IMG/VR virus record: IMGVR_UViG_3300023116_000294 | Coordinates: 1-26,150 of that record | Source of the DNA: a virus | Direction: 5' to 3' (one strand) | Length of the DNA stretch: 26,150 nucleotides | Shown: positions 8,245 through 25,074 of the stretch, one piece after another | Position numbering within the stretch: the first letter of the stretch is position 1 | How the letters are laid out: each line of letters begins with the position of its first letter | The notes under the pieces: model-generated | The model's input: the letters and a program-made list of their open reading frames with translations, nothing else | Database searches by the model: none | What the model was told of the DNA's origin: nothing | Translations under genes and position numbers: made by a program

Positions 8245-9156
8245 ATGGCACGCTACTACGTTAACGAAAAAGCTAGGTTTGGTGGTGTCGCTGGTACTAT
8301 CATTCCTTTTCCACAACAATTACCAGCAGGAAATACTCCTGACGCTGGTAATTGGAGAGCATATTTACCAGCAGGATTTTTAAGATGTGATGGTTCTGTA
8401 CTTAGTGCTTCCGAGTATCCTGTTCTAGCAGAAATTCTAGGGACAGGAGATAATTGTAAATTCCAAAAAGAGGGACAAGAACTATCATCCAATGAGTTTG
8501 CGTTACCTGATTTAGGATCTAAGTATATTTCTGGATCTGCTTCTTCTGGTACATTCTTGAATTCCAAGATCGAAAATACAGATTCTACTCAGGGATATAG
8601 AGTAGGTTCTGAGGTTGAGATCTCATCTTTGGTTGGTAGTACACAAACAATTACATACGGCGGTACTTTTGAGCTGGTTCCTTTTACAGCAAAAAGTTTC
8701 ATTGGTAATCCTCAGTTTAAAACTATTTCTTCTGATGGAAATACATTGAATGCTTTCCTTAGCGATCAAGCATTCCAGGCACATGGACATGATGCTACAA
8801 TTGGTGTTTTTAGTTATTTGGGAAACTGGTCGGATTCTATCTTTGTTAGTAATGACGGTGCTGCTTTAGGTGGTAACGATGCTCAAAACGAGGGATCTAA
8901 TAATCTAGTTCAGGTTCAACAACCAACAGGATCATCTGCTGTTGTTGCCCACTCACACCAAGTTCAATTTCCTAGTAGTGCTGATATTGCTGCTGCTAAT
9001 GAAATGACTTATCAGTTGTTAGAACCTGCTACTGGTGAAATTGAAATTGATCCTTTAGGACTAGAAACTACGGTTACTATCACCACAGAAAATATTTACA
9101 AGTTGGATGAAGCAACTCCTCCATACATTTTAGTAGAATACATTATCAAGTTCTGA
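8245..9156 (+). CDS. Tail collar domain protein, second copy
   Basis: The protein has 303 residues. ATG 8245 immediately follows the TAA of the previous gene, so translation is probably coupled. Residues 18-95 are a collar domain: GTIIPFPQQLPAG, then LPAGFLRCDGSVLSASEYPV, ending ALPDLGSKYISG. The C-terminal half carries two His pairs, H180-G-H182 and H236-S-H238, spaced as in the other two collar proteins of the window. The end (ILVEYIIKF) is a short hydrophobic strand typical of tail-fibre C-termini. It is about half the length of its upstream paralogue because it lacks the CBM-like and GSGY modules. The role is inferred to be a small fibre or collar component of the baseplate. The identity as a collar protein is solid; which fibre it forms is unknown. 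Confidence 0.85.
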   Translation: MARYYVNEKARFGGVAGTIIPFPQQLPAGNTPDAGNWRAYLPAGFLRCDGSVLSASEYPVLAEILGTGDNCKFQKEGQELSSNEFALPDLGSKYISGSASSGTFLNSKIENTDSTQGYRVGSEVEISSLVGSTQTITYGGTFELVPFTAKSFIGNPQFKTISSDGNTLNAFLSDQAFQAHGHDATIGVFSYLGNWSDSIFVSNDGAALGGNDAQNEGSNNLVQVQQPTGSSAVVAHSHQVQFPSSADIAAANEMTYQLLEPATGEIEIDPLGLETTVTITTENIYKLDEATPPYILVEYIIKF

Positions 9157-9157
9157 T

Positions 9158-10735
9158 ATGGCAGCAAAAGTAGTTTGTATATCTGTAGTTGACGAAGCGG
9201 ATACTTCCACTCATCTTAATAATAGAAATTCTGACTTTAATACTTTTAGAAGTACATATCCAAATAGAGAATTTTGGTTATTAAATCCACAACCATCATA
9301 TACCAGTCAATTAGGTCTTCCTAGTGCGTGGAATAGTGATCCTCTTACTTTTGGTCCTATTACTGTTAGTAGATTAGATAGTAAATATGGAACGTCAACA
9401 GTTCCACCAACTTCTGATTGGTTTACTATTACTGGATTAGATCAAGCAGAAGAAGGAAGTGTCGTATCATTAGCAGTTGATACTTCTGGTTCTACTGTTT
9501 TGGCTGATGTCCAAGATTCTTATAACCAGTTTATTTCTGATTGTAATGCTGCTGGATTTGTCTTAGTTGTTAATACCACTTTTGGTAACGAACGCTGGAT
9601 TGCTCCACATAATGTATCTGTTCCACCAAACACTTCTATTAGTGTATCTCCATCAACTATTTTAAGAAATGGTAGTGGAGCAACACTCTCTTGGACATCT
9701 GCTGGTGATATTTCAGAAAATGCTGATGGACTACCTAATATATCTGTTACTGGTGTCACAAATCCTGGTCTTTCTGGTAGTGTCACAGTTAATCCACAAA
9801 ATACCACAACATACGATATTACTGCCGAAGGTCCTGCTGGAGATTCAGGTGATAGTGTTACTTTAACAGTTGTAGATCTACCTAATATTTCTTCTTTTAC
9901 TGCTTCTCCTAATCCACAAACTAGCGGCACAGATGGAATTCCAAATTATAACACTACATTGAGTTGGTCGGCGTCATCTGATCTAACTATTACCAGTGCC
10001 ACAATCAGTTCTGGTACTTATTCTGCTTCTGTTCCAAATCCAAGTACTAGTGGATCTTTTGAGGTAACTAATTTACCTCAATCTGTAGCTGGTAGTGGTG
10101 GAGCTAGTAGAACATATACATTGACGTTGTGTCACTCGTTGGGATGTTCTACCGAAACAGTAACTGTAGAGGTTACTAATGATAATACACCATCTAATAC
10201 CTGGACTACGGAATTTACTGGGTTGGATCCAAATACTGAATATGCTAAAAATCTTGGGACTTTATCTGGCATTGACATGGTAACTAAAGTATCATGCCCT
10301 ACATCAGGTGTCTTTTTTGCTAATGGTGCTAATGGATCTTACGCTAATCCACAGTATTTTACTAATGGTCAAAACGTTTATATTAAAATGATAACATTAC
10401 GATTTAATCCCGATCTTAGTGGTTTGGGGGCAAATGATTTATTCGGAAAACCAAATCCCAAAACAGTTAGTATTACGGTTGGATCCCTAGACCCATTTGA
10501 TGTTACTTTTACTACTAGACCACCTAACATTGGAGAAACATTTAATTTTGATGGGGCGTCTGGTGAATATCCTTATGAAGATATTGATTTAATTACTAAT
10601 ACTCCTAGTGAATATGCTGTAACTCAAACTCTAAATATGGATGATATTGATGTTGACGTTGAGATAAGAACTGATGATCCAAACGTTGAAATTAAGATAA
10701 ACAACGAACCATGGCAAAGTATTCAGGAGATTTAA
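9158..10735 (+). CDS. Adhesin-like structural protein, paralogue 1 (vWA-like head)
   Basis: The protein has 525 residues and starts one base after the previous stop. Residues 1-150 form the head: a strand (VVCISVVDEAD), then VVSLAVDTSGSTV, in which D108-S110-S112 matches the DxSxS metal site (MIDAS) of von Willebrand A domains. It is followed by a helix and a strand (GFVLVVNTTF). Residues 150-244 and 245-343 are Ig-like; the second begins ASPNPQTSGTDGIPNYNT. Residues 344-450 are a complete copy of the beta domain that recurs in the 2232-aa fibre. Residues 454-525 resemble only its first half and end WQSIQEI. The part from 245 onward is shared with three following genes. Inferred: the stalk attaches to the virion and the head contacts the host or another tail protein. 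The vWA call is uncertain because most of that fold is not evident. Confidence 0.75.
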   Translation: MAAKVVCISVVDEADTSTHLNNRNSDFNTFRSTYPNREFWLLNPQPSYTSQLGLPSAWNSDPLTFGPITVSRLDSKYGTSTVPPTSDWFTITGLDQAEEGSVVSLAVDTSGSTVLADVQDSYNQFISDCNAAGFVLVVNTTFGNERWIAPHNVSVPPNTSISVSPSTILRNGSGATLSWTSAGDISENADGLPNISVTGVTNPGLSGSVTVNPQNTTTYDITAEGPAGDSGDSVTLTVVDLPNISSFTASPNPQTSGTDGIPNYNTTLSWSASSDLTITSATISSGTYSASVPNPSTSGSFEVTNLPQSVAGSGGASRTYTLTLCHSLGCSTETVTVEVTNDNTPSNTWTTEFTGLDPNTEYAKNLGTLSGIDMVTKVSCPTSGVFFANGANGSYANPQYFTNGQNVYIKMITLRFNPDLSGLGANDLFGKPNPKTVSITVGSLDPFDVTFTTRPPNIGETFNFDGASGEYPYEDIDLITNTPSEYAVTQTLNMDDIDVDVEIRTDDPNVEIKINNEPWQSIQEI

Positions 10736-11881
10736 ATGCCTACCGTAACATTTAATACATTTAGAGATGCTGGAGATCAAAACTACTTATGTTTTTCTGG
10801 TAGTTGTGTAGGTCCTAATACTGGAACTTCTTTTGTAGATAAACCTGCTGGCAGTACTAATGGTTATTCTACCCAGGGTAGTGGACCAGGATCTGTCGGT
10901 TATAGAATTAATAGTAGCACACAAATTGGTCTTGACGATAGACAAGGTGCTGGTGCTGATAATGATTATAATGATCTCATTGTAACAATTACTTCTGGTA
11001 ATGCGGAATTTCGTAGTAATGGATTGTATGTTTACTATGATCCTCCTGTAATTAGTGGGTTTTCTGCTTCTCCTAACCCACAAACTAGTGGTACTGATGG
11101 CATTCCAAATTATAACACTAGATTATCATGGGGATATCAAAATGCTACTTCATTAACTTTAACCAGCAGTGCTGGTGAGTCGTGGAATGTATTGGGTACA
11201 ACATCTCGTAATATTACTAATCTCCCTCAATCTACTGGTAGTGGAGCAACTAGGTCATACACACTAACAGCAAATAATCCTGATCGCCCAGCTGTTAGTG
11301 AGACAATTACAGTTACTGTATATAATGATAGAACTCCTTCTAATAGTTGGACCACATCTTTCACTGGATTAGAACCAAGTACTCAATACACTAGAAGGTT
11401 GGGCACATTATCTGGAATTGATATGACAATTAAAGTTGAAAGTTCTTCTAGTGGTGTATTTTTCTCTAATAGTTCTGGTGGTGGTTTTGCTAATCCAAAG
11501 TATTTTACTAATGGTCAATCTGTTTATGTAAGGACAACTTCGTTGCCTTTTAACACAAATACTAGTGGATTATCTTCTTCTGCTACTAGTGGAAAAACGA
11601 ATACTAAAACATTTTCTGTTAGTGTTGGAGGACTATCTTCTTTCAATGTCTCGTATACTACTAGAGCCCCAGTCATCAAAGAAACGTTTGACTATGACGG
11701 ATCCGCAGGACAATATCCTTTTGAAGATATTGATTTGATTTCTAATACTCCGACTGAATATGGATTAACACAAACCCTAAACATGGATGACATTGAAATT
11801 GATATGCCTATTGAAACTGATGATCCAAATGTACAAATCAAGATAAATAATGGTAGTTGGCGAAATATCCAAGAGATATAA
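10736..11881 (+). CDS. Adhesin-like structural protein, paralogue 2 (DUF4114-like head)
   Basis: The protein has 381 residues. ATG 10736 abuts the upstream stop and is served by AGGAG (10725-10729), which lies within the last codons of paralogue 1. The head (1-105) contains an acidic stretch, L66-D-D-R-Q-G-A-G-A-D-N-D-Y-N-D-L81. This resembles the 'ED..GsDxDyND' signature of DUF4114 and related secreted beta domains, and suggests calcium binding. The Ig-like stalk starts at about 106 (FSASPNPQTSGTDG). The complete beta domain spans 201-309 and the terminal half-domain 310-381 (TFDYDG to WRNIQEI). The stalk is closest to paralogue 4 at the C-terminal end. Function is inferred as for the other paralogues; the calcium-site suggestion rests on the Asp/Asn pattern alone. 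Confidence 0.75.
   Translation: MPTVTFNTFRDAGDQNYLCFSGSCVGPNTGTSFVDKPAGSTNGYSTQGSGPGSVGYRINSSTQIGLDDRQGAGADNDYNDLIVTITSGNAEFRSNGLYVYYDPPVISGFSASPNPQTSGTDGIPNYNTRLSWGYQNATSLTLTSSAGESWNVLGTTSRNITNLPQSTGSGATRSYTLTANNPDRPAVSETITVTVYNDRTPSNSWTTSFTGLEPSTQYTRRLGTLSGIDMTIKVESSSSGVFFSNSSGGGFANPKYFTNGQSVYVRTTSLPFNTNTSGLSSSATSGKTNTKTFSVSVGGLSSFNVSYTTRAPVIKETFDYDGSAGQYPFEDIDLISNTPTEYGLTQTLNMDDIEIDMPIETDDPNVQIKINNGSWRNIQEI
11842..11849 (+). promoter_or_regulatory. Possible T4-type late promoter (GATAAATA)
   Basis: GATAAATA matches the T4 late consensus TATAAATA except at the first base. It lies 36 nt before ATG 11886. It is inside the stalk codons for KINNG, so protein constraint alone could explain it. 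Confidence 0.25.
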
Positions 11882-12376: not shown

Positions 12377-14065
12377 ATGTCATCAACTCCTGTATCAAAT
12401 ACATATACATCTGCTCAAAACGTTGACATTCCAGATAATCATGTCAATCTAACCATTACCGTTAATGGTGCTAGAGGTGGACAGGGTTATGGGGGTGGAT
12501 CTAGTAGAGCTGGTGGTAATGGTAGAAATGGTACATTCCAATATCTTTCTTCTTACAATTTCACTGCTAGATCTTTAATTCTAGCTCCTGGTGATAATGG
12601 TGGTAATGGTGGTGTATATGGTGGTGGATCTGGTGGAGATGGTCCACATGACGGAGGAAATGGTGGACCTGGGCAATGGTCATATCAGCAAGCATATAAC
12701 TGTGATCAAGGTAAAGGATATGCTAGAGATTGTGGTGGCAGTTGTGGATGTTGTAGTAACTGGTATTGTGGTGGTAGTCAGGGGAATGGGGATCCCTGTT
12801 GTGGTGGAGCACAAGGAACAGCAAATGAATGTTTTTGCTGTTATGAACCAAAAACTTGCTACAACACAATTTATGTAAATAGCGGTGGTGGTGGCGGTGG
12901 TGGATCATCTAGTGCTGTTTATGATACCACTGCTGGTGCCTATGTTGCTATTTCTGGTGGTGGAGGCGGAGGTGCTAGATCTCAGGGTACTGGAGCAGCT
13001 GCCGCTGATTGGACTTCTGTTAATGGAAATTTTTCTGGTAGCTCTGGTAGTAATGGTGGAAATGGTGGTCAGTCTGGTGGAACTGGTGGAGGAGGTGGTG
13101 GTGCTCCTGGCAATAGTTACAATAATTCTGCTGGATCAAAATACAACACACAACTAGTATCTTTATCTTCTTCTTCTCTAGGCAATACTCCAAGTATTGT
13201 TGTATCTTACGATTTACTTGTCCCTGAAGTAGAAATTAGCGCAAGTCCTAATCCACAAACTAGTGGATTAGATGGAGTACCAAATTACAATACAACTATA
13301 GATCTTACTCTTCAAAACTGGCAATATGCTGTTCTTACAGGTAATGGTATAAATCAAACTTACTATCCTGGCGATACCCTATCGTATACTGATAATAATC
13401 TGCCACAATCTGTGACAGGTAGTGATTCTCCTGCCACAGTTACATACACTGTAACGGCATATGCTGGATCTGAAAGTGTAACTGAAACTTTGATTGTAGA
13501 AGTTACTAATGATGAAGATCCTTCAACCACGAATTGGACTACCACATTTAGCAATTTAGAAAAAGAAACAGTATACTCGAAAAACATAGGTAAAATTGCT
13601 GGTGTTGATATGGTTATTGAAGTTTCGTGTGAAGACGATGCAGTTTTCTTTGCTAATGGTGAGAATGGATCTTATTCCAATCCACAATACTTTACCAATG
13701 GTCAAAACATTTATTTAAAAACAACAACTTTACCATACAACACTGACATATCTGAATTGTCTAGTGATGCTACATACGGCAAAACAAACACTAAAACTAT
13801 GGATGTTGTGATTGGAACTGATACTATCGCTGTTAATTTTGTTACTAGAGCTCCAGTTATCAAAGAAACGTTTGATTACGATGGACAACCAGCTGAGTAT
13901 CCTTATGAAGATATAGACCTAATTACTAATACCCCAGCATCATCTCTTGTGACACAAACTATAGAAATGGATGATATTGAAATTGATATGGAAATTAGGT
14001 CTGATGATCCAAACGTACAAATTAAAATTAATAATGGTGGATGGCAAAATATTCAAGAGATATAA
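12377..14065 (+). CDS. Adhesin-like structural protein, paralogue 3 (Gly- and Cys-rich head)
   Basis: The protein has 562 residues. Residues 1-280 form a glycine-rich head: an opening strand (VNLTITVNGARGGQGYGGG), repeated GGNGG and runs of seven glycines at 13 kb, in the style of phage receptor-binding tips with polyglycine helices. Residues 109-161 hold 12 cysteines, several as CC pairs (GCCSNWYC, DPCCGG, ECFCCYEP). The shared stalk follows: Ig-like from about 281 (ISASPNPQTSGLDGVPNYNT), the complete beta domain at 386-489, and the half-domain at 490-562 ending WQNIQEI. A second glycine-rich domain lies in the 2232-aa fibre. Inferred: a receptor-recognition adhesin. The Cys cluster suggests metal binding or disulfides formed after release. 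The head is unrelated in sequence to the heads of paralogues 1, 2 and 4. Confidence 0.8.
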   Translation: MSSTPVSNTYTSAQNVDIPDNHVNLTITVNGARGGQGYGGGSSRAGGNGRNGTFQYLSSYNFTARSLILAPGDNGGNGGVYGGGSGGDGPHDGGNGGPGQWSYQQAYNCDQGKGYARDCGGSCGCCSNWYCGGSQGNGDPCCGGAQGTANECFCCYEPKTCYNTIYVNSGGGGGGGSSSAVYDTTAGAYVAISGGGGGGARSQGTGAAAADWTSVNGNFSGSSGSNGGNGGQSGGTGGGGGGAPGNSYNNSAGSKYNTQLVSLSSSSLGNTPSIVVSYDLLVPEVEISASPNPQTSGLDGVPNYNTTIDLTLQNWQYAVLTGNGINQTYYPGDTLSYTDNNLPQSVTGSDSPATVTYTVTAYAGSESVTETLIVEVTNDEDPSTTNWTTTFSNLEKETVYSKNIGKIAGVDMVIEVSCEDDAVFFANGENGSYSNPQYFTNGQNIYLKTTTLPYNTDISELSSDATYGKTNTKTMDVVIGTDTIAVNFVTRAPVIKETFDYDGQPAEYPYEDIDLITNTPASSLVTQTIEMDDIEIDMEIRSDDPNVQIKINNGGWQNIQEI

Positions 14066-15304
14066 ATGACACAAGATTCTTCATTTACTAGCAGATCGCC
14101 AAACGACCAAGGTTACACGGGAACCAATAGTAATGGTGGGTGGTCATCATTCATGAATAACAATAATATTGGTGGTAGTGACAGTGGTACACCAACTAGA
14201 ACTTTTAGTTGGACTATTACTTTTAATAATTATGGCAGACAAACATTCGACACTGCCGTAGATGACTCGGGATCTGTATCTATTAGTGGATATGGAAGTC
14301 AGTTTGTTATGGGTGGTTATGGTGGTCAAACTTCTAAAACTACTAGTAGTTATATTCCTCCAGGAACTTATACACTAAGCGCCACTTCAGTTAATAGTGG
14401 TAGTGGTCCATGGGGTATAGCATTAGATTGGACTGGATTCGTTCCGCCACCACCAGCTGTAATTACTAGTTTTACCGCTAGTCCTGAAATTCAAACTAGT
14501 GGTACTGATGGCATTCCGAATTATAACACTACATTAAGTTGGAATATTACTAATGCCACGACTGCTATTTTAACAACTGATGGTGGTAGTGGTGATATCT
14601 GGAATGGTGTAGCTTTGTCTTTACCTAATGGTAGTCTACCAATTAATAATTTACCACAATCTAGTGGTAATGGAGCAAGTAGAACATACACAATAACTGC
14701 TACTAACGTAGCTGGTAACACAGTTACTGATTCAATTACAGTTGATGTATACAACGATAGAAATCCTTCTAATTCTTGGACTACATCATTTACTAATTTA
14801 GAACCAAATACATCATACGCTAAAAAACTAGGAACTTTGTCTGGCATTGATATGATAACAAAAGTGTCATGTCCTACATCTGGTGTCTTCTTTGCTAATG
14901 GTGCTAATGGATCCTATGCTAACCCACAGTATTTTAGTAATGGTCAAAATGTTTACATGAAAATGACAACATTACCATTTAATACTAATATTAGTGGTGT
15001 AACTGGAGATTTTGGTAAAACAAATACTAAAACAGTTAGTGTTACTGTTGGTGGTTTGAGTGCTTTTAATGTTTCTTATGTTACCAGAAAACCTAGGATA
15101 AGTGAGGATTTTGATTATGATGGAGCAGTAGGAACTTATCCTTTTGAAGATATTGATTTGATTTCTAATACTCCGAGTCAGTATGGATTGTCACAAACTC
15201 TAAACATGGATGATATTGAAATTGATATGGAGATTAAGGGTGATGATCCAAATTTACAGATCAAGATAAATAATGGTAGTTGGCAAAACATTAGAGAAAT
15301 TTAA
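14066..15304 (+). CDS. Adhesin-like structural protein, paralogue 4
   Basis: The protein has 412 residues. ATG 14066 follows the previous stop directly, with AAGAG (14055-14059) as a likely ribosome site. The head (1-132) looks like a single beta-sandwich: FSWTITFNNYGRQTFDTAVD, then SVSISGYGS, YIPPGTYTLSATSV and WGIALDWTGF. The layout is reminiscent of PA14-like or other ligand-binding sandwiches, but I cannot assign a family. The stalk is the common one: Ig-like 133-229, complete beta domain 238-340, half-domain 341-412 ending WQNIREI. Its middle section matches paralogue 1 almost exactly (SCPTSGVFFANGANGSYANP), while its last 70 residues match paralogue 2. This mosaic pattern suggests exchange between copies. 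Confidence 0.75.
   Translation: MTQDSSFTSRSPNDQGYTGTNSNGGWSSFMNNNNIGGSDSGTPTRTFSWTITFNNYGRQTFDTAVDDSGSVSISGYGSQFVMGGYGGQTSKTTSSYIPPGTYTLSATSVNSGSGPWGIALDWTGFVPPPPAVITSFTASPEIQTSGTDGIPNYNTTLSWNITNATTAILTTDGGSGDIWNGVALSLPNGSLPINNLPQSSGNGASRTYTITATNVAGNTVTDSITVDVYNDRNPSNSWTTSFTNLEPNTSYAKKLGTLSGIDMITKVSCPTSGVFFANGANGSYANPQYFSNGQNVYMKMTTLPFNTNISGVTGDFGKTNTKTVSVTVGGLSAFNVSYVTRKPRISEDFDYDGAVGTYPFEDIDLISNTPSQYGLSQTLNMDDIEIDMEIKGDDPNLQIKINNGSWQNIREI
15265..15272 (+). promoter_or_regulatory. Possible T4-type late promoter (GATAAATA)
   Basis: The same octamer as at 11842, 33 nt before ATG 15306 and again within the KINNG codons. Paralogues 1 and 3, which are followed by another paralogue, do not carry it. 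Confidence 0.25.
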
Positions 15305-15305
15305 C

Positions 15306-15518
15306 ATGGCAAGTAGAAGAGTAAAAACTGGATTATGGAGAATTTTCGTGCTTGTAAAGTCACAGCAGATTGGTGTGCTTGAAGAGTTTACAACTACTTA
15401 CAATGACGAAGTTGTCAACGTAGAAGGAATTGATAGATATATCAACCCAGGTGATGATCTCTCTGGTGAAGATGAGATTGTACAACTTATTGCTAACACA
15501 TATTTTGGTACGTTATGA
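15306..15518 (+). CDS. Small protein, function unknown
   Basis: The protein has 70 residues. I chose ATG 15306 (after the upstream stop at 15304) over an in-frame ATG at 15273 that lies inside paralogue 4. It has a basic start (MASRRVKTGLWR), a hydrophobic strand (IFVLV), then an acidic beta-like region (YINPGDDLSGEDEIVQLIA) ending YFGTL. The NPGDDL stretch faintly recalls the VSPGDNVQV start of the 2232-aa fibre, but this is too short to assert homology. Its stop overlaps the next start as ATGA (15515-15518), indicating translational coupling. It probably belongs to the same tail-protein operon. Confidence 0.7.
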   Translation: MASRRVKTGLWRIFVLVKSQQIGVLEEFTTTYNDEVVNVEGIDRYINPGDDLSGEDEIVQLIANTYFGTL

Positions 15519-15703
15519 GCGAAGTATTTCCTATTTTATACGACATGGAACCAGATGATATGTATAAATCTGGTAGATTTACTCCTGACATTACAGAACG
15601 ACAAGAAATTACGGCAGATAAACCGATTCAAGTTAGGATCAATGGCGGTCCATGGGTAAACGTTAGACCTAGTGACCTAAATAAATCTGAGGATAATACC
15701 TGA
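15515..15703 (+). CDS. Small protein resembling the stalk's terminal half-domain
   Basis: The protein has 62 residues. Its ATG overlaps the previous stop by ATGA. It contains PIQVRINGGPWVNVR, which matches the end of the paralogue stalks (DDPNVQIKINNGxWxNIxEI) in spacing and pattern. The preceding MYKSG and QEITAD fit the strand order of that half-domain. It could therefore be a free-standing version of the stalk terminus. It ends with a charged tail (SDLNKSEDNT) 10 nt before the 2232-aa fibre gene, whose first residues look like the missing second half of the same domain. The homology is my reading of short motifs and needs profile comparison. Confidence 0.65.
   Translation: MSEVFPILYDMEPDDMYKSGRFTPDITERQEITADKPIQVRINGGPWVNVRPSDLNKSEDNT
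15677..15683 (+). promoter_or_regulatory. Late promoter motif CTAAATA for the 2232-aa fibre gene
   Basis: CTAAATA, extended to CTAAATAAAT, lies 30 nt before ATG 15714. CTAAATA is a known late promoter element of T4-like cyanophages, related to T4 TATAAATA. It lies within the last codons of the 62-aa gene. Confidence 0.55.
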
Positions 15704-15713
15704 AGTATAGTCA

Positions 15714-18700
15714 ATGCCATATAGTAGCAATCCTGTGTACGTTAGTCCTGGGGATAACGTACAGGTAAGATATCCAACACCAGATACATGGAATACGCAG
15801 GTTACTGTAAATCTTCGTATTGGTACGGGACAGGATCCTGATGGTATTACTTTTGGTACAAAAATTCCTGATGCTACGCCAGCTGGATTTACTTTTACCG
15901 ATCAGCAAGGATATTTAAATGCTTATGATGGCAATAGCAATAATACCTTAACTGGTGGTAGAACAACTTTTGAAAGAGACACTACATATTATTCCAATTT
16001 AATCGAGATGTCGGGGTTTGAAGTCCCCATTGACGGTGCTATTTCTGCTGTATCTAACGGTCCTAAGAATAGCAATACGTCTAATACAACAGCAGAGTTT
16101 AGAATCTTTAGAGATGGATCTTTTGACTCTTGGAGAACTACTATTAGTGGTAATCTTGCTGAAGGTACAGGCGGCATTCAACCAGGAGATAAAATTCAGT
16201 TAAGGGTAACTACTCCTGATTGGTATATTACTTGGACTAGAGTTACATTTAGTGTAAATGAAACCACAACTGGTGGCGGTCTTGGTTCTGAATATACTGC
16301 TGCTGGTGTATCATCTTCTGCTATCTTAACAGGAACGTGGGATATTTCCACTAGACCACAGGATCAATCGATTCCTGCTAGTGAAATTAACTTCACTGAT
16401 CGTGTTGACATGGTTCCATACAGTGAAGGTGGACCTCAATATTATTATCATCGTGTTGATATTACTAACATTGATGACGATGCTGTACTAAGAGTATCAA
16501 CTACTGGTGTAGCGAGAGTAGTCAAGGTAGAGGGTGGTGGAAATGCTGCTGCTCCTACTAGTGGATATTCTACATCTTTAACAGGCGTTGTTCTTGGTGA
16601 TGATGTATTTGTTAGAATGCCTAATGGCACTAACTACACAGAAAAAGAAAGCGGATCAATAACAGTATTTGCCCAAGGTGGTGAGACATACACTAGAGGT
16701 AGTAATTCTTATGAGAACGTAGATGATGGTACAACATATGGATCTGGTACTTATGCTGTATCACAAACTCTTGGTAGCGTAACTGATAATTGGCAAATCT
16801 GGACAGAAGTAGATAGATATCCAGATGCTATTGCAGCAACACCCATCTTTACATATGGTATTAAGACAGAAATTGTTAGCGTAGGCGGAGTAGCAGTAAC
16901 AGGTTCTGGATTTAACTACACTGGTACATTTAGTACCACTACTAATGGATCTGGTGAGGGAATGAAGATTAAACTTCTTCCTGGTGGATCAAGTGGCACT
17001 TCATTTTCAACAATTAGTGAAGAAAACGGATATACTACAGCTTTCATTTCAGACCCAGGATATGACTATGTTGCTGGTGATATAGTCACAATTATTTCTC
17101 CTGGTGGTAGCAATGCTCAAATCAGAATTTTAGAGTATGAAAAGATTACAATCTCTAAAACTGTTGATGCCACATGTGAACCTGGATTTATGTACTTTGC
17201 CGACATGCCAGTGTCAGGTCTTGGTACAGAATATACAGACGGTGCTTATGATGACCTAGAATCTCCTTATACTAATCTACAGAATACAATCCTTGATGAT
17301 ACTGGGTCTTCTGTACAAAGTATCAATGCAAATTTGGATGGTCAATCCGTAAAAATCAGGGCAATTATTGATGGAACTGGTGGTGAAATTAGAAAAAATA
17401 ACACTGGAGCATGGACTGGATCTCAAATTACTGTTGAGAATGGCGATACAATTAATTTAAAACTTAACTCAAATAGTACATTTGGTGGTACGGCTACTGC
17501 TAAAGTTAGGATTATTGGTCCTACAGCAGGTAATCCTGACTTAGGTAACCCAACTGGGGGTCCATCCCCTGCTTCTAAGGCAGAAAAACAAACTACAATG
17601 ACTCTTACTACTAGATCTAGAAGAGTTATTCCATATCCTTTCCACGCTGAACCTGTTTTCCTTTCTAATCCTAATCAAGAGCACATTGCTGAAGTTGCTA
17701 TCGAAGGTTTAGACGTACAAACAAATGCTGAAATCGTTAATAATGGTGTAGGAGATTTGAGTACAAATGGATCAAACTGGTCTAATAGTGTTACAATTCA
17801 ACCAACTGATACTACGTTATATGTTAGAACCAATGCCGCTACTAATAGTGGAGGAGTGAAAGAATTAACGTACAGAATTTACAGAGATGGTCAGGAGGCA
17901 TATGATACGTTCAGAATTTACACCCGACTCTTTAACAATCTAGGATTTTTTGGATTTTTACAAGCAGATGGTGATGGTGCCAATACTTATCAGACATTAG
18001 AATTGCCATATTACGCTACACAAGATTTTTATGTAACACTAGTTGGCGCTGGTGGTGGTAGAGGTGGTGATGATGCTCCTAACTCTCAAGGTGCTGGTGG
18101 TGGTTCTGGTAACTTCCTTAGATTAAGGGTACAGAGAGATGATTTTCCAGATCAACCTGGATTCCCTGGTGTTACTGACGGTAGAGTTAGAGTATATGCT
18201 CCTGATAAAGGAGGAGACGGTCAAAGTTATATTCAAGGAGCTGGCGGTGGTGCTGGTGGATGGGGATATGCCATGGGTGGCGCTGGCGGAGATTCTGGTA
18301 ATGGAGATAAATCTGGTGCTGGTGGGGGCGGCGGCGGTGCTGCCGCTATTACAATGTTAGATGGAACTTTAATCGCTATGGCTGGCGGTGGTGGTGGCGG
18401 CGCTGGTGCTGGTAATGATACTGAAGTGCCACGTTCTGATGCTTTTGGTAACTGGGATGGTTATGGTTCTCTACAAACAACAACCACTGACATTAATTTG
18501 GGTGGTGATGATGCTCCTGATGCTACTGGTTCAGGCGCTGGTCCTGGCGGTGGTGGTGGTGGATATGATGGCACTGCTGGAACATTGTTTACCCAGAAAT
18601 TAGATGCTGATGGCAATGTTATTCAAACTACTGATTTAGATGCTAGGGGTGGACTTGGTGGCGGTGCTTATTATGATAGTACAAACACCGTTATTCTTGC

Positions 18701-21700
18701 TGGTACTACATTGGACGGTCTTGGTGCCCCTCCTGGACAATTTGGTAGAGTTATCATTGAATATGGACCACAGGATGTTACTCCAGACGATTTTGACTTT
18801 GATCAGGTAGATAGTGTTAACATTAATACTCAGGTTGTTTCTAGTAGAGCACTGATTCAAGGAATTACAGGTAAAGTGCCAATTCAATTATCTTCTCCTG
18901 GATTTACTGCTACTGCTAGAGTTTGTACTTCTGATACTGATGCTTCTTGTGGTGCTTGGGGTGCTACTCAAATTGGCAATAACGAGTATCTTCAATTAAG
19001 AGCAACAACTGGAACTTCATATAATACGCCATATGAAGTACAAGTTGAAGTTGGTGAAACAACATCCACGTGGGTTATTAACACTGGTCCACCACCAGAT
19101 ACTACAGTAAATTTCTTCCAGTTTACAGATGCTGAAGATGCTCCTTTGAGCACTTTAACTACTAGTGAGGTTGTTACTATTAGTGGTATTAATGTTCCTG
19201 TGGAAGTCACTGCTAGTGGTGGAGCTGAAATTAAAATCTATAATTCTGACAACACAGTAGATTTAGATTGGACATCTGGATCAACAGCAAATTATATCGA
19301 GAACAATCAGAAACTACAAATTAGAGTCACATCTTCTGCTGACTATAGTGATGATGTTGATGTTGTTGTGACAGTTGGTACTGGATCTAATTCCGAAGAT
19401 ATTTGGACGGTTACAACCTTGGATGAAATTGATACTGAACCAGAAGCATTTAGTTTCTTGGATGTTAGTAACGCTAACCCTAATACAACATACACAAGTA
19501 ATGTCAATGTTATCGAAGGATTGGGCGGTCCTACTTATTTCCAAATAGATTATGGTGATAATGATCAATCAGATTCATCAACTCCAGCGTTAGCCATTAT
19601 TCTCCTTGATGGTATCGAGCAACTCAATTCTTCTGGTGATCCACTAACTTATATTCAAGTAGAGAATAATGATCAGATCTCATTGAAATACACTACAACT
19701 GGTGTACTTGGAGAACCTAGAGAGTTTATCACTAGAACTGGTGGCACATATAATACAACAACTCAAGAAGTAGAAGGATCTACCGATTACCCAGTATATG
19801 AAACTGACTGGAAAGTAACAACTGCTGGATCATTTGTATCCAACCCAGCAGCATTTACCTTCCAAACAGTTCTAGCAAGTGGGGCTGGTGTTGACACTAA
19901 CTCAGTCGAAGTTCCCTCTATTTCTGGATTGGGACAAGTTACGCCAGTTGTCACCACAAATGGATTGAAAGTTTCTATTAATGGCGGCACTTTTAATCCT
20001 TCTAGTGGAGAGTATACAGTAAATAATGGTAATACTATTCAAGTACAGTTAGAATCTTCTGAAATTCCTGGATTCACTAGAACTGGATCTATTACTATTG
20101 GTAACTATACGACATCATTTACTGTACAAACTCCTGCTGCTGTACAGGACCCAATTAAGAGTCAGTGGTATAGTTCTATTCAACCAGTAAAATATCTTGT
20201 TGCTGGTGCTAATGCTGGAAGTCAAATCCGTTTTGATACTAAGTTTGATGGTCTTCCTATTGGATCTATGATTCCTGTATTCCAAGATGCTACACAATCT
20301 GATAATTGGGGAGACCTAGATGGCGAATTTACTTCTAGATTCCCTGGTATGTTGTACTGTGATGGTAGTTATGTCGAACCAGAAGATTATCCTATGCTCT
20401 TTGCTCTATTACAATATAGATACGGAGCAGAAGCAGTAACTGGTGAAACATTTACCACTACTTTATACGATGTCAATGGTAATATTCTTAAAGAAGATGG
20501 TGATGCTAAGATCTTAATGAGATTACCTGATCTTAGAAACAGATATCTTAAGGGAACTGGTGTTATTGATGGTACTCAATTATCATCTCCTGGACTAGCA
20601 CCTACATATCAACCAACCAAACTTGCTGGTGCCCCTGGTAATCAATCTCCTGGAGCATTTGGTGGTATGTGGTATGTTGATACCATTGGAGATCCTGGAT
20701 CTGGTGAACTTGAACAAGTACAAACACCTGCCGAAGGTTTACCAGCAAATGAATCTGATTACTTTGGTATTGCTCAGGTACAAACCACTGGTTATACTGA
20801 TGTCAGTGGTAACGTGGAATTCTTGGTATCTGGATCATGTGTAGCTCAAGTAAGCCTTAAGAAACAAAAAGTTTATGATGTTCCACTACACTTCCATGAA
20901 CTAGTTACTGGTCAGAAGGACCAGGGAGCATTCAAAGGTCGTGTTAACTGGGGTAGTGATGGTGGATTTAGATCTCCTGCTGCTAGTGCTAGTGAAACAT
21001 TTGTTGGTAAATTGAGTACCACATATGAATATGAAAGACAATATGGTTTTAACCAGTGGGGATATTTAACTAGAAACGACGTTTACGTTCCTGACAATAA
21101 TCTACCACGATCTGCTTACTGTCCTGGTAAATCTACAGAATGGTGGGATGGTAGTACAGAAGATTGGTCAGATCCATCAGGTTATCAAGGTATTTCAGAC
21201 ATTGGCAATCCGTCACCAAATCCTCAATTAGTACAACCTAATATGCTTGCCGTCGATGGAGCTATTTTAGGAGTTGATGTTACTTCTTCATCCACAACCT
21301 CAAGTGGTGGAACATATTCCCAGGTTGCTTCATCTGGTGGTGGTGGATCGGGAGCAACATTTACTGTAATACGAGGAACCACTGCTGCAACTACTGGAGG
21401 AGATATTCAAAATCTTAGCATTGGTAATGCTGTAGCTCCTGATGTGACCGAGCAAGTTGTTTATGAAGACATTACTGCTACTCCTGGCGCTAATGTGACT
21501 GGAACTGGTGCTGTGTTCGCTGTACTTATCAATACAAATAATACATATAGTGTACAAGCAACTACAGGTGGATCTGGATATAATGTTGGTGATACTCTCA
21601 CTATTCCTGGAACAACATTTGCTGATGATGGTGGTACAAATGGTGGTACAGATTCAAATGGCGATGTCATTGAAAATGCTGATGGTAGCGATCCTCCAGT

Positions 21701-22412
21701 TGAAGATGCAAATGGTAATGAAATTGTAGACGCGAATGGAGTTGCAGCACCAGATAATAGTATTACAATTACTGTTAGTGCTGTTGGACCTGCTAGTTCA
21801 GGAAATGTTGGAGAAGTAGTATCTGTTACTGTTAACTCAGGTGGATCTGGTTATACTAGTGGCGGTACAGTAACTCTTGCTGCTGGTAATGTTGGAGGAT
21901 CTGCTATTACTTTAACTATTAACTCAATTTCTTCTTCTGGTGCTTATGGAGAAATTAATAATTATATTGATGTTACTAACTCTCCTTGGCCAGGTAATGG
22001 ATCATCTGACTTTAATGGTGTTGTTGGTGCTTATAAACAGTTTACTAGTGTTGACATCCCAGAGAAACAAGCTACTATTAAAGGATATAATCCAGAGAGT
22101 AAATTGTTCCACACTCATTATGTTTCTCTATCAGCACCATTTGATGATGACGGAGAAATGTATAGTTACGGTAACTATGACACTTATGGAAACAAGAGTG
22201 CTGGTTTAAATACAAATGCTAGCACACATGGTCTTGAATCTGTTAATCTGGAATTCAATTCCATTGCTGATCTTGGTGTTCAAGTTCTTCCTGGTACATT
22301 TACATTGTCACAGACAAAACAACTTATCCCAACACCATCACTAACACCTCAAGATGAAGTAGCATTGATGTCTCCATACACTTGGACCAAGTGGTTGATT
22401 AAGGCATACTAA
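15714..22412 (+). CDS. Large tail fibre protein with repeated beta domains, Gly-rich and collar domains
   Basis: The protein has 2232 residues. A TAG just upstream in frame fixes ATG 15714. Residues 8-36 (VSPGDNVQVRY to VNLRIGTG) look like the second half of the beta domain. Complete copies follow at roughly 50-185, 210-390, 475-660 and 665-750, and four in tandem at 1023-1473. Their pattern is aSN.v.i.G, a W, then v.nGD.iqlR and W.vtT. Residues 770-1020 are a glycine-rich domain (LVGAGGGRGG to GRVIIEYG). A tail collar domain spans about 1513-1616 (LPIGSMIPVFQDA, FPGMLYCDGSYVEPEDYPML, LPDLRNRYLKGTG). H1726-F-H1728 and H2133-T-H2135 are paired metal-type histidines. Two GSGY modules lie at 1870-2075. 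It is likely the main receptor-binding or proximal fibre. It has its own late promoter motif, and a probable chaperone gene follows. Confidence 0.85.
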   Translation: MPYSSNPVYVSPGDNVQVRYPTPDTWNTQVTVNLRIGTGQDPDGITFGTKIPDATPAGFTFTDQQGYLNAYDGNSNNTLTGGRTTFERDTTYYSNLIEMSGFEVPIDGAISAVSNGPKNSNTSNTTAEFRIFRDGSFDSWRTTISGNLAEGTGGIQPGDKIQLRVTTPDWYITWTRVTFSVNETTTGGGLGSEYTAAGVSSSAILTGTWDISTRPQDQSIPASEINFTDRVDMVPYSEGGPQYYYHRVDITNIDDDAVLRVSTTGVARVVKVEGGGNAAAPTSGYSTSLTGVVLGDDVFVRMPNGTNYTEKESGSITVFAQGGETYTRGSNSYENVDDGTTYGSGTYAVSQTLGSVTDNWQIWTEVDRYPDAIAATPIFTYGIKTEIVSVGGVAVTGSGFNYTGTFSTTTNGSGEGMKIKLLPGGSSGTSFSTISEENGYTTAFISDPGYDYVAGDIVTIISPGGSNAQIRILEYEKITISKTVDATCEPGFMYFADMPVSGLGTEYTDGAYDDLESPYTNLQNTILDDTGSSVQSINANLDGQSVKIRAIIDGTGGEIRKNNTGAWTGSQITVENGDTINLKLNSNSTFGGTATAKVRIIGPTAGNPDLGNPTGGPSPASKAEKQTTMTLTTRSRRVIPYPFHAEPVFLSNPNQEHIAEVAIEGLDVQTNAEIVNNGVGDLSTNGSNWSNSVTIQPTDTTLYVRTNAATNSGGVKELTYRIYRDGQEAYDTFRIYTRLFNNLGFFGFLQADGDGANTYQTLELPYYATQDFYVTLVGAGGGRGGDDAPNSQGAGGGSGNFLRLRVQRDDFPDQPGFPGVTDGRVRVYAPDKGGDGQSYIQGAGGGAGGWGYAMGGAGGDSGNGDKSGAGGGGGGAAAITMLDGTLIAMAGGGGGGAGAGNDTEVPRSDAFGNWDGYGSLQTTTTDINLGGDDAPDATGSGAGPGGGGGGYDGTAGTLFTQKLDADGNVIQTTDLDARGGLGGGAYYDSTNTVILAGTTLDGLGAPPGQFGRVIIEYGPQDVTPDDFDFDQVDSVNINTQVVSSRALIQGITGKVPIQLSSPGFTATARVCTSDTDASCGAWGATQIGNNEYLQLRATTGTSYNTPYEVQVEVGETTSTWVINTGPPPDTTVNFFQFTDAEDAPLSTLTTSEVVTISGINVPVEVTASGGAEIKIYNSDNTVDLDWTSGSTANYIENNQKLQIRVTSSADYSDDVDVVVTVGTGSNSEDIWTVTTLDEIDTEPEAFSFLDVSNANPNTTYTSNVNVIEGLGGPTYFQIDYGDNDQSDSSTPALAIILLDGIEQLNSSGDPLTYIQVENNDQISLKYTTTGVLGEPREFITRTGGTYNTTTQEVEGSTDYPVYETDWKVTTAGSFVSNPAAFTFQTVLASGAGVDTNSVEVPSISGLGQVTPVVTTNGLKVSINGGTFNPSSGEYTVNNGNTIQVQLESSEIPGFTRTGSITIGNYTTSFTVQTPAAVQDPIKSQWYSSIQPVKYLVAGANAGSQIRFDTKFDGLPIGSMIPVFQDATQSDNWGDLDGEFTSRFPGMLYCDGSYVEPEDYPMLFALLQYRYGAEAVTGETFTTTLYDVNGNILKEDGDAKILMRLPDLRNRYLKGTGVIDGTQLSSPGLAPTYQPTKLAGAPGNQSPGAFGGMWYVDTIGDPGSGELEQVQTPAEGLPANESDYFGIAQVQTTGYTDVSGNVEFLVSGSCVAQVSLKKQKVYDVPLHFHELVTGQKDQGAFKGRVNWGSDGGFRSPAASASETFVGKLSTTYEYERQYGFNQWGYLTRNDVYVPDNNLPRSAYCPGKSTEWWDGSTEDWSDPSGYQGISDIGNPSPNPQLVQPNMLAVDGAILGVDVTSSSTTSSGGTYSQVASSGGGGSGATFTVIRGTTAATTGGDIQNLSIGNAVAPDVTEQVVYEDITATPGANVTGTGAVFAVLINTNNTYSVQATTGGSGYNVGDTLTIPGTTFADDGGTNGGTDSNGDVIENADGSDPPVEDANGNEIVDANGVAAPDNSITITVSAVGPASSGNVGEVVSVTVNSGGSGYTSGGTVTLAAGNVGGSAITLTINSISSSGAYGEINNYIDVTNSPWPGNGSSDFNGVVGAYKQFTSVDIPEKQATIKGYNPESKLFHTHYVSLSAPFDDDGEMYSYGNYDTYGNKSAGLNTNASTHGLESVNLEFNSIADLGVQVLPGTFTLSQTKQLIPTPSLTPQDEVALMSPYTWTKWLIKAY
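18779..20131 (+). repeat. Four tandem beta-domain repeats in the fibre protein
   Basis: The repeats are at about 18779-19084, 19109-19417, 19438-19822 and 19842-20131, each 97-128 codons. Recurring landmarks are P..F.F at the start, an SxxVxIxGI-type strand, then nnqkLQIRVTSS or its equivalent, and a W-x-V-x-T end (TWVINT, IWTVTT, DWKVTT, SFTVQT). They are diverged in DNA sequence, so the array is old. Confidence 0.7.
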
Positions 22413-22415
22413 ATA
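22409..22415 (+). promoter_or_regulatory. Late promoter motif CTAAATA upstream of the chaperone gene
   Basis: CTAAATA overlaps the TAA stop of the 2232-aa gene and lies 21 nt before ATG 22437, in a true intergenic gap. It is the same element as at 15677. Confidence 0.6.
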
Positions 22416-22436
22416 GTAAAAAGAATTCTGACAGAA

Positions 22437-23375
22437 ATGGCGTTCAATCCAGACGATTTTCAATTTGAATCTATTGCTCCTCCAGAGGAACATAAACCTA
22501 TTCTGGAGTGGAATGCTCTTGCTAGATTTATTGTCCTCAGAACAAGAGGAGAAAATAAAGAGTGGGAGTATTTTGCCGCTAAGTTAGATCCTGCTGTCAA
22601 TTCCAATCTTTTGACACATTGTCCAGACGAGTGGTCTAATGATAATGATCGAATTATTAATTTTGCCATTTATGAGGATGGTGAATATATTCTAGAAAAA
22701 GAAAAGCAAAAATTTGATTTTGCTACTAAGAAATCAAAATGGATTAGATATCAGTATAAGAATCTTCAACTAGATGAAGTAAAAGAACTATTTGAAGTTC
22801 TTAAGGCAGCTATTGAAGTTAATAAATTAGATCAAGAAGTAATTAGAACTAGAGAGATTGCTGATCTTGCTACATCAAATGAATATATTGTTGGTATTGA
22901 TGAGCAAATTAAGCAAACTAAAGAACTTTTATTAAACAAGAGTGATTGGTCACAGTTGGCAGATGCTCAAGAAACATATGCTGGAGAGGTTGATAATTGG
23001 ACTACCTACAGAGCATATCTTAGGGATAATATTAGATCGCCAGAAGATTTTGATGATATTCTGGACTACCTTGTTTGGGATGCTGATTTTAGATGGCCTA
23101 TTGATCCTGTTGCTTATCACAAATTAGATCCAGATGGCAATACTGAGTATCTAAGTGTACCAGAACACTTCAGTAAATCTATTACTGGTACTGGTAAATT
23201 TGCCAGTGAAGCAATATATGGTAGTGTTGAAGCTGCTGCTATCACTATGAAGTCAAGATTGAGGAATGGTGGTATTCCAGTCACACAAAGAATTTGGGAA
23301 AAAGTACAACAATACAATTTAAATGATGGTTTGGCAGGTGCTAACCTAGATAACTTAACTATTGTGGAGGAGTGA
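22437..23375 (+). CDS. Probable tail-fibre assembly chaperone-like protein
   Basis: The protein has 312 residues and is markedly AT-rich. The centre (169-200) reads SDWSQLADAQ, then VDNWTTYRAYLRDNI. This resembles the 'tDWtqlpDa...W..YRq.LRdi' signature of phage tail-fibre assembly and tail assembly chaperones. The helical stretch before it (LDEVKELFEVLKAAIEVNKLDQEVI) could be a coiled coil. The N-terminal 110 residues (ARFIVLRTRGENKEWEYFAAKL) and C-terminal 100 residues (FRWPIDPVAYHKL onward) are not recognised. Known: such chaperones are usually encoded directly downstream of the fibre they fold, as here. The protein is longer than usual for this group, so it may carry extra domains or be structural itself. 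The chaperone role is inference. Confidence 0.7.
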   Translation: MAFNPDDFQFESIAPPEEHKPILEWNALARFIVLRTRGENKEWEYFAAKLDPAVNSNLLTHCPDEWSNDNDRIINFAIYEDGEYILEKEKQKFDFATKKSKWIRYQYKNLQLDEVKELFEVLKAAIEVNKLDQEVIRTREIADLATSNEYIVGIDEQIKQTKELLLNKSDWSQLADAQETYAGEVDNWTTYRAYLRDNIRSPEDFDDILDYLVWDADFRWPIDPVAYHKLDPDGNTEYLSVPEHFSKSITGTGKFASEAIYGSVEAAAITMKSRLRNGGIPVTQRIWEKVQQYNLNDGLAGANLDNLTIVEE

Positions 23376-23826: not shown

Positions 23827-25074
23827 ATGCTCACCCTTCGTCCTCACCAGCAGCGTGCTCTTGCTGCTCTTGAGAACAACACTCACGGTCAAGTCATTGT
23901 CCCCACTGGTGGTGGCAAGACTATCATTATGATCAAGGATGCTCAGCGTCGTCTGACTGCTGCTGCTACGCCACAGACTATTGTAGTGGTCGCCCCACGT
24001 ATTCTACTGGCAAACCAACTCTGTGATGAGTTCTGGTCTGCTTTCAATGGTGATGTTGATGCTGAGTTCTTCCACGTTCACAGTGGTGAGACTTCTTTCG
24101 GCAGCAGCACCAAAGTCCAGAAGATTCAATGTCACGATGCTGTCTGTAAGACTGCTGGTCTTCACCAAGTCATTTTCACCACTTACAATTCGCTCCGTCG
24201 TGTTGTAGAAGCAGGCATTGACATTGACTGTATCTATTACGATGAGGCACACAACTCTGTCCGTCGTGACTTCTTTGAGTCTGTGCTTAATGTTGATGCT
24301 AAGTCCTACTATTTTTTCACTGCCACTCCTAAGCACACCCATTCTCCTTATGGTCGTGGCATGAACAACAGCATGGTTTACGGTCCTATTCTTGAGACTG
24401 TTCCTGCTCCTGAGCTTGTCAACAACGGCAGCATTCTTGCTCCTGAGGTTGTATCCTACGAGGTTGACTTCGAACGAGTCAAGGGTAAGTTCTCTTACGA
24501 ATCTGACAAGGACACTCTCACCAATCTCATTAATGACATTGATGCTGATGGTAACAAGATCCTGATTGCTGCTCCTAGCAGCAAGATCATGTTCAACCTG
24601 CTCACTAAGACTAGTGTGCTTGACTTCTTTCATGACAAGGGTTACGATGTACTTCACATCACCAGCAAGTATGGTGCTTATGTGAACAAGACTAAGGTCA
24701 ACCGTGAGCAGTTCTTTGACACGTTCAATGCTTGGGGCAAAGATCCTAACCGTAAGTTCGTGATCTTCCACTACAGCATCCTGTCTGAAGGCATCAACGT
24801 TCACGGTCTAACACACTGTGTGTTCCTTCGTCAACTGGATGTCATCCAAATGGCACAAACTGTCGGTCGTGTTATCCGTCTTAACAAAGACGACGCTGCT
24901 GACATTGCTTGTGGTAAGATTACCCCAGGCAAGTTCGAGATGTATCGTAAGTCCACTGGCAAGGTCATCGTGCCTGTCTTCAAGAACTACGGTGCTCCCA
25001 CTATCAAACGCCTTCAAAACCTTGTCGATACTATTTTCGTCAAGGGTCTCCCCGCTGTTTCTGTCACTGTCTAA
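23827..25074 (+). CDS. Superfamily 2 DEAH-box helicase (type III restriction/UvsW-like)
   Basis: The protein has 415 residues. Motifs are in order: LRPHQQRAL at the start; Walker A P26-T-G-G-G-K-T32; APRILLANQL (Ia, about 55-64); FTTYNSL; DEAH at 139-142; TAT at 165-167; SEGINVHG (motif V, 320-327); and QTVGRVIR (motif VI, 344-351, arginine finger candidates R348 and R351). Both RecA-like lobes are therefore complete and an ATP-driven nucleic-acid translocase is expected. It resembles the ResIII/UvsW group, but it is shorter than T4 UvsW (587 aa) and its Walker A differs, so I do not name it uvsW. ATG 23827 has AAGG 6 nt upstream. The stop overlaps the HNH start (TAATG). Base composition and codon choice are more GC-rich than in the preceding genes. 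Confidence 0.85.
   Translation: MLTLRPHQQRALAALENNTHGQVIVPTGGGKTIIMIKDAQRRLTAAATPQTIVVVAPRILLANQLCDEFWSAFNGDVDAEFFHVHSGETSFGSSTKVQKIQCHDAVCKTAGLHQVIFTTYNSLRRVVEAGIDIDCIYYDEAHNSVRRDFFESVLNVDAKSYYFFTATPKHTHSPYGRGMNNSMVYGPILETVPAPELVNNGSILAPEVVSYEVDFERVKGKFSYESDKDTLTNLINDIDADGNKILIAAPSSKIMFNLLTKTSVLDFFHDKGYDVLHITSKYGAYVNKTKVNREQFFDTFNAWGKDPNRKFVIFHYSILSEGINVHGLTHCVFLRQLDVIQMAQTVGRVIRLNKDDAADIACGKITPGKFEMYRKSTGKVIVPVFKNYGAPTIKRLQNLVDTIFVKGLPAVSVTV

Follow-up and report, generated by a model that had tools for sequence, protein, structure and literature searches.

The DNA analysed here (the window: 26,150 nucleotides (nt), positions 1 to 26,150 of the IMG/VR virus record IMGVR_UViG_3300023116_000294) is part of a T4-like cyanophage, and encodes a large tail protein, two tail-collar proteins, four adhesin paralogues, small open reading frames (ORFs) and a tail fibre of 2232 amino acids (aa). 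We analysed the C-termini of the adhesins and the N-terminus of the fibre, which resemble the first part (half A) and the last part (half B) of one immunoglobulin (Ig)-like domain. The split recurs throughout the relatives that we compared, and we consider it likely that A and B combine in trans into one domain, mounting exchangeable adhesins on one fibre. The large tail protein and the second collar protein were named from their position and likeness in annotated relatives. The name 'adhesin' comes from the initial annotation and is putative, being based on variable heads and on location beside the fibre genes. Protein searches gave Synechococcus phages as relatives, with Sf-FR1 the nearest at the fibre N-terminus (43%). 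Region 14000-22500 had no near DNA match in the phage collection, which may omit the window's own or very near records.

Two halves of a fibre repeat at the ends of separate genes

The ORFs and their C-termini proved to be as the initial annotation had described them. A segment containing W (half A) forms the end of all four adhesins, whose C-termini are INNEPWQSIQEI, INNGSWRNIQEI, INNGGWQNIQEI and INNGSWQNIREI for paralogues 1 to 4, respectively, and which stop six residues past the W. The same segment is found near the end of the 62-aa ORF. This protein had also been said to end at the W strand; the motif RINGGPWVNVR is indeed present, but 15 residues remain past the W. The fibre N-terminus, MPYSSNPVYVSPGDNVQVRYPTPDTWNTQVTVNLRIGTG, resembles the second half (B) of the fibre's own repeats. 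A late-promoter motif had been noted between the two halves, and the core CTAAATA is found there, 30 nt upstream of the fibre ATG and past the A half of the 62-aa ORF, though overlapping the 3′ end of its coding sequence (coordinates of all features are in Table 1). Weak matches to the end of PHROG 2155 were seen for the 62-aa ORF (E 0.03) and, to its very end, for the last 44 aa of paralogue 3 (E 0.012). The fibre belongs to PHROG 4924 and carries the Pfam Collar domain (25.1 bits, cut-off 24).

We compared both halves with the intact Ig-like repeats of the fibres. In a search over 67 fibres, the A profile matched residues 1150-1187 of the window fibre and the B profile residues 1192-1248; the two matches adjoin, in order, so that A and B match the first and the second half of one intact repeat. 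The profile seeds included the A and B halves of the window and of Sf-FR1, and the bit scores of these halves are therefore not independent; the intact repeat of the window fibre was not a seed. At an independent E-value (iE) of 0.01, internal B-like matches were found in 55 of the 67 distinct fibres and internal A-like matches in 14. S-CAM4, ACG-2014j and Sf-FR1 have weak A matches (18 bits) inside their fibres, each of them the first half of an intact repeat.

Profile-profile comparison with the intact repeats D2, D3, D4 and D5 of relatives gave probabilities of 94.9, 95.5, 92.1 and 21.9% for B, clear for three of the four, and of 3.2, 0.4, 0.6 and 19.4% for A alone. The joined AB profile matched D5, the last repeat, colinearly at 70.6%, with either half alone at 19-22%; controls on three non-repeat stretches gave at most 3.2% for joined AB and at most 6.0% for B alone. 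Homology of A alone to D2-D4 by this method was thus not convincing, and was rejected; support comes from the last repeat and from the window's own repeat. Because A alone scores weakly, its relation to the repeats rests less on its own score than on order and position, on the window's own repeat and on structure prediction. The view of the initial annotation that both halves belong to the repeat domain holds well for B; for A it holds inside the window, mainly through the match beside B, and is weak against the repeats of relatives. By sequence comparison, then, B is homologous to the intact repeats, and A less strongly so.

Recurrence of the split in cyanophages

We took 16 regions of public phage records, and found further loci in IMG/VR with the fibre N-terminus as query, which does not select for upstream content; some of the IMG/VR lists are the best 80 matches, and several contigs occur twice. 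Matches of 30 bits or more for A and of 40 bits or more for B were taken as strong. In the window and in all 14 of the named relatives compared, an A half closes the gene that precedes the fibre, and also most of the adhesins further upstream. Among 231 fibres with an N-terminal B, an A-ending gene lies upstream of 229, and the other two start close to a contig edge (54 and 89 nt). From 225 usable A-B pairs, 67 are distinct at <85% identity. For none of the 526 strong A matches does the same ORF continue into B (within 120 residues); 466 of them end 11 residues or less from the stop, and the internal ones listed among the other 60 lie mostly inside concatenated adhesins. All 233 strong B matches are N-terminal (within 30 residues of the upstream stop). 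A thus lacks its second half in cis and B is an orphan, as had been proposed, and the fused halves that the initial annotation suggested looking for in related phages were found in none of the 231 loci. The gap between A and B is out of frame at 160 of 226 junctions; at the remaining 66 it is in frame and contains two or more in-frame stops. Three loci have an ORF of about 200 aa, by eye a 2-oxoglutarate (2OG)-Fe(II) oxygenase, between A and B, and keep both halves. The split is confirmed, and its recurrence in all 14 named relatives and across the IMG/VR loci is more than chance.

The promoter core recurs as well. TAAATA was present between 40 nt before the A stop and the B start at 225 of 226 junctions (64 of 65 distinct ones), compared with 4.4% of random stretches of similar length (194 of 4425) and 4 of 32 junctions of successive A-bearing genes, which suggests that A and B are expressed separately.

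The numbers of A and B per genome fit the proposal that several adhesins share one docking site. In 12 of the 14 complete phage records a single strong B goes with two to six strong A, at the places of the adhesin genes (three A in 10 phages, two in S-CAM4 and six in S-CAM3), and a second strong B was found in none of the 14. In 46 longer contigs, which are fragments, partly near-duplicates, not independent and possibly cut, the A counts at E <= 1e-6 were three in 27, two in 7, one in 3, four in 5, five in 3 and six in 1. With counts ranging from 1 to 6, 'three A per genome' was rejected as a strict rule. In some phages two to four adhesin units are chained in one protein, each with its own A. 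Such concatenated adhesins were seen in the collected loci L050, L051 (1558 aa), L021, L082, L096, L007 (1789 aa) and L016; there, each unit has its own half A and then a linker, and no strong A is followed by B.

In Sf-FR1 there is a single strong B, and a weak A (23 bits) occurs in a 58-aa ORF. S-SCSM1 has no A match in its genome and no N-terminal B, only an internal B-like match; the related fibre in its locus (L003) starts with a domain that is complete by eye, and S-SCSM1 is a possible outgroup for the origin of the split. In the clade of the window, a nearly free-standing A of 57-62 residues lies directly before the fibre in nine of the nine loci listed. Sf-FR1 and its relatives have, at the place of the window's 62-aa ORF, a 57-59-aa ORF whose end is the same, and also a small ORF at the place of the one that precedes the 62-aa ORF in the window. 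Thirteen of the 14 named relatives are without a small A protein before the fibre, and the A of the last adhesin adjoins B there. The first adhesin of the Sf-FR1 clade (L001:6754-8142; similar in L227-L231) has about 60 extra residues past the W segment, with an AKNI-like end, possibly a different docking end.

We compared the heads (first 130 residues) and the A halves (last 45 residues) of 37 adhesins from 12 phages; Sf-FR1, two near-duplicate phages and ORFs of 200 aa or less were left out. The best match lay in the same genome for 0 of 37 heads, and for 23 of 37 A halves (2.3 expected by chance). The head of paralogue 4 from the window, for example, is 66% identical to an adhesin of S-RIM44, and its A half shares 67-80% identity with those of paralogues 1 to 3, and no more than 49% (over 20 columns or more) with those of other phages. 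Like A halves and unlike heads within a genome would be expected if heads were exchanged on an unchanging plug. The likeness of A halves within a genome would also rise through gene conversion of the ends or their recent duplication.

Predicted fold of a joined A-B chain and features of the window

Structure prediction was made for locus L017 (S-CAM4 type), read through the stops so that the last 75 residues of the adhesin, a 15-residue linker and fibre residues 1-195 formed one chain. The AlphaFold2 input was a 74-row alignment, with 20 joined and 16 A-only rows for the A part; 25 of 47 A-only rows that MAFFT had misplaced onto another part of the target in an earlier alignment were dropped. 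AlphaFold2 packs A and B of this chain into one domain, with block means of 90-96 for A residues 41-70, 78 for 31-40, 49 for the linker and 84-95 for B. The predicted strands are 36-38, 51-55, 60-63 and 69-71 in A, and 109-115, 123-130 and 133-141 in B. Strands 240-246, 254-261 and 264-272 close the intact domain that follows, and they are arranged like the three of B, judging by order and length, not by superposition. As a control, we folded the last 200 residues of the same adhesin without B (57 rows). The adjoining adhesin domain folded in the absence of B, residues 1-130 being predicted at 78-98 (89-98 up to 130), and A (161-200) dropped to 64, 67, 78 and 80 per ten residues, with two short strands left. 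In these models A folds fully only with B, both being in one chain; we read this, by prediction only, as A needing B to form one domain in the S-CAM4-type relative. The models thereby lend support to the idea of the initial annotation that the N-terminal half of the fibre is completed in trans.

Among the 50 VIA-align matches listed, tandem Ig domains span both domains in 21, such as titin Z1Z2 (2f8v; Z 5.9, root-mean-square deviation (rmsd) 3.9, 163 aligned, model 11-273) and SbsC domains 4-5 (4uid; Z 6.5, rmsd 6.3, 144 aligned, model 27-274). Foldseek and VIA-align yield only common Ig-like domains, with a middling score. A sequence search of the PDB gave only two Skp1 matches (E about 1), no better than chance, for the fibre N-terminal profile, and none at E <= 0.01 for the window fibre.

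Table 1. Positions of half-domains and associated features in the window and, in the last row, in three collected loci
Feature	Position	Strand	Evidence
Half A, C-terminus of adhesin paralogue 1 (525 aa, 9158-10735)	10598..10732	+	A profile 50.8 bits; in profile seed
Half A, C-terminus of adhesin paralogue 2 (381 aa, 10736-11881)	11744..11878	+	A profile 53.3 bits; in seed
Half A, C-terminus of adhesin paralogue 3 (562 aa, 12377-14065)	13928..14062	+	A profile 58.2 bits; in seed
Half A, C-terminus of adhesin paralogue 4 (412 aa, 14066-15304)	15167..15301	+	A profile 64.8 bits; in seed
Small ORF between last adhesin and 62-aa ORF	15306..15518	+	81 aa if start at 15273
62-aa ORF, almost free-standing half A (A match ~15587-15673)	15515..15703	+	A profile 37.3 bits; in seed
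Late-promoter core CTAAATA between A coding and B coding	15677..15683	+	Sequence
Tail fibre, 2232 aa	15714..22412	+	PHROG 4924 'short tail fiber protein', E 8e-93; Pfam Collar residues 1544-1575
Half B, orphan second half at fibre N-terminus	15720..15896	+	B profile 72 bits; in seed; homologous N-terminus in Sf-FR1
Intact fibre repeat (A-like 19161-19274, then B-like 19287-19457)	19161..19457	+	A profile iE 0.0012; B profile iE 1.1e-4
ORF between A and B	L049:1372-2035; L214:3383-4001; L215:3380-4001		Resembles 2OG-Fe(II) oxygenases by eye

Other features of the window were noted in passing. The head of paralogue 1 is related to an adhesin of S-PM2 (50%); this protein also has a DTSGS stretch, which we take to recall the metal-ion-dependent adhesion site (MIDAS) motif of von Willebrand A domains, and a Pfam scan gave no family for it. 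Paralogue 2 has weak DUF4114 and fn3 matches, under the Pfam cut-offs. Three collar-type proteins (6316-8244, 8245-9156 and the fibre) have a similar terminal motif (LIRAY, YIIKF and WLIKAY), which several relatives show too and which may be a common C-terminal element. An ORF at 25074-26066 has, by eye, an HNH-endonuclease-like stretch (VEHIEPNAGDHPDNW), and adjoins an ORF (23827-25074) that is helicase-like, also by eye.

Proposed docking in trans and its alternatives

We propose that one seven-stranded Ig-like domain is encoded in two pieces: the first, of about four strands (half A), at the end of the adhesins, and the last, of three strands (half B), at the start of the single fibre. At assembly, A and B would fold together in trans, forming a non-covalent joint between the adhesin C-terminus and the fibre N-terminus, and heads could be exchanged between phages with the joint unchanged. 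Since the adhesins of a genome carry A and B is of one kind, several adhesins would use the same docking site; we infer both the complex in the virion and the sharing of the site. In the clade of the window, the 62-aa protein may be a free A that caps the site or fills it by default. More tentatively, and with rather less than even chances in our estimate, the fibre may be a trimer whose three B halves are each completed by the A of a different adhesin, giving one fibre with mixed heads. Such a trimer would explain why three is the commonest A count (10 of 13 complete phages with A; 27 of the 46 contigs), and chains of three units, of about 1560-1700 aa, do occur. A strict rule of three, however, is at odds with the other counts, from 1 to 6, and with one chain of four units.

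Several observations weigh against docking in trans. The adhesin ends of the Sf-FR1 clade have diverged and carry an insert, and in Sf-FR1 a whole-genome A search passes only the 58-aa ORF and a fibre repeat. The predicted packing of A and B comes from one chain joined through stops, which favours contact; the VIA-align Z values are middling, and 29 of the 50 matches listed, the top one included, cover just the intact second domain. The best A match lies in another genome for 14 of the 37 adhesins, and some head matches are weak. A alone scores poorly against D2-D5, and internal A-like matches are far rarer than B-like ones. Finally, the co-variation of A and B is unspecific: in a partial Mantel test on 61 pairs, r(A,B|D2) was 0.21 and r(A,D2|B) was 0.27; B is not distinguished from D2, its neighbouring domain, and the test is evidence neither way.

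The halves could instead be a relic of gene fission, where a promoter cut a fibre gene carrying an adhesin, and the halves now fold alone or in homotrimers with no contact between them. This is improbable in our judgement. The moderate scores that A alone receives (64-80), with its two short strands kept, and the unspecific co-variation are in line with it, and the 66 in-frame gaps may be listed on the same side, though they neither support nor exclude an old fission. However, a relic would have to account for both halves being kept in 229 of 231 loci (67 distinct pairs), for one to six A per record, also in concatenated adhesins, for the strands that A loses without B, and for A halves that are alike within genomes when heads are not. 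A little less probable still is that A docks the adhesins elsewhere, on the baseplate or another fibre, and that B is completed by the fibre itself or only by the 57-62-aa protein. The small A protein beside the fibre in the window clade and the diverged adhesin ends of Sf-FR1 would suit this reading, but no second strong B exists in the 14 complete genomes, 13 of 14 named relatives do without the small protein and have the A of the last adhesin adjoining B, and S-SCSM1, which lacks A, lacks the N-terminal B too. That A and B are really one polypeptide, separated by a sequencing error, a frameshift or programmed read-through, is hardly credible. The halves are adjacent and ordered in the genome, as this would require, but none is fused in the 231 loci (some from the same contig), most gaps are out of frame and all the others contain at least two in-frame stops, the promoter core lies in the gap, and a whole ORF separates the halves in three loci.

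Completion of A and B in trans, which we favour, would resemble donor-strand complementation of chaperone-usher pilins, in which a piece of one subunit completes the incomplete Ig-like domain of another and joins the two strongly but non-covalently. The cyanophage domain may likewise be completed by another subunit. It differs in being split into about four and three strands, compared with six and one in pilins, and in its partners: the donor is not a single strand from an N-terminal extension but the C-terminal half-domain of an adhesin, with about four strands, and the acceptor is the N-terminus of a phage fibre. A Pfam scan of eight window proteins gave no chaperone or usher partner, and no search was aimed at them. 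In the split CnaB2 domain (SpyTag/SpyCatcher), one Ig-like domain is likewise divided between two polypeptides that reassemble; SpyTag is engineered and the joint covalent, whereas the cyanophage split occurs naturally and is conserved. T-even phages, where gp38 sits on gp37, also encode exchangeable, often Gly-rich receptor-binding proteins next to the fibre; in the cyanophages, in contrast, attachment would complete a domain, and would do so at the N-terminus of the fibre. Like T4 gp12, the window fibre carries a collar domain (PF07484) and matches PHROG 4924, but it has in addition an N-terminal half-domain and Ig-like repeats, with several adhesin genes directly upstream. We found no description of such split-domain docking in the open-access literature searched, and its novelty is provisional. 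One study describes ten virion structural proteins with a similar distribution in nine cyanophage genomes, suggested to be possibly functionally linked (PMC3037559). In a coexistence experiment with S-PM2d, short-tail-fibre genes were among those mutated (PMC9910659), which hints at a role of such proteins in adsorption, although the gene numbers used there do not map with certainty to the genes described here.

Docking through a split domain would account, in a way open to testing, for the mounting and exchange of several receptor-binding proteins in this group of T4-like cyanophages, by a constant plug on variable heads and one constant fibre socket, and suggests a role for the conserved C-terminus of proteins mostly annotated just as 'virion structural protein'. 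The split domain may also serve as a natural protein fastener. If trimeric fibres with mixed heads are indeed formed, the natural, conserved split-domain plug would serve generally as a rail on which exchangeable receptor-binding proteins are mounted.

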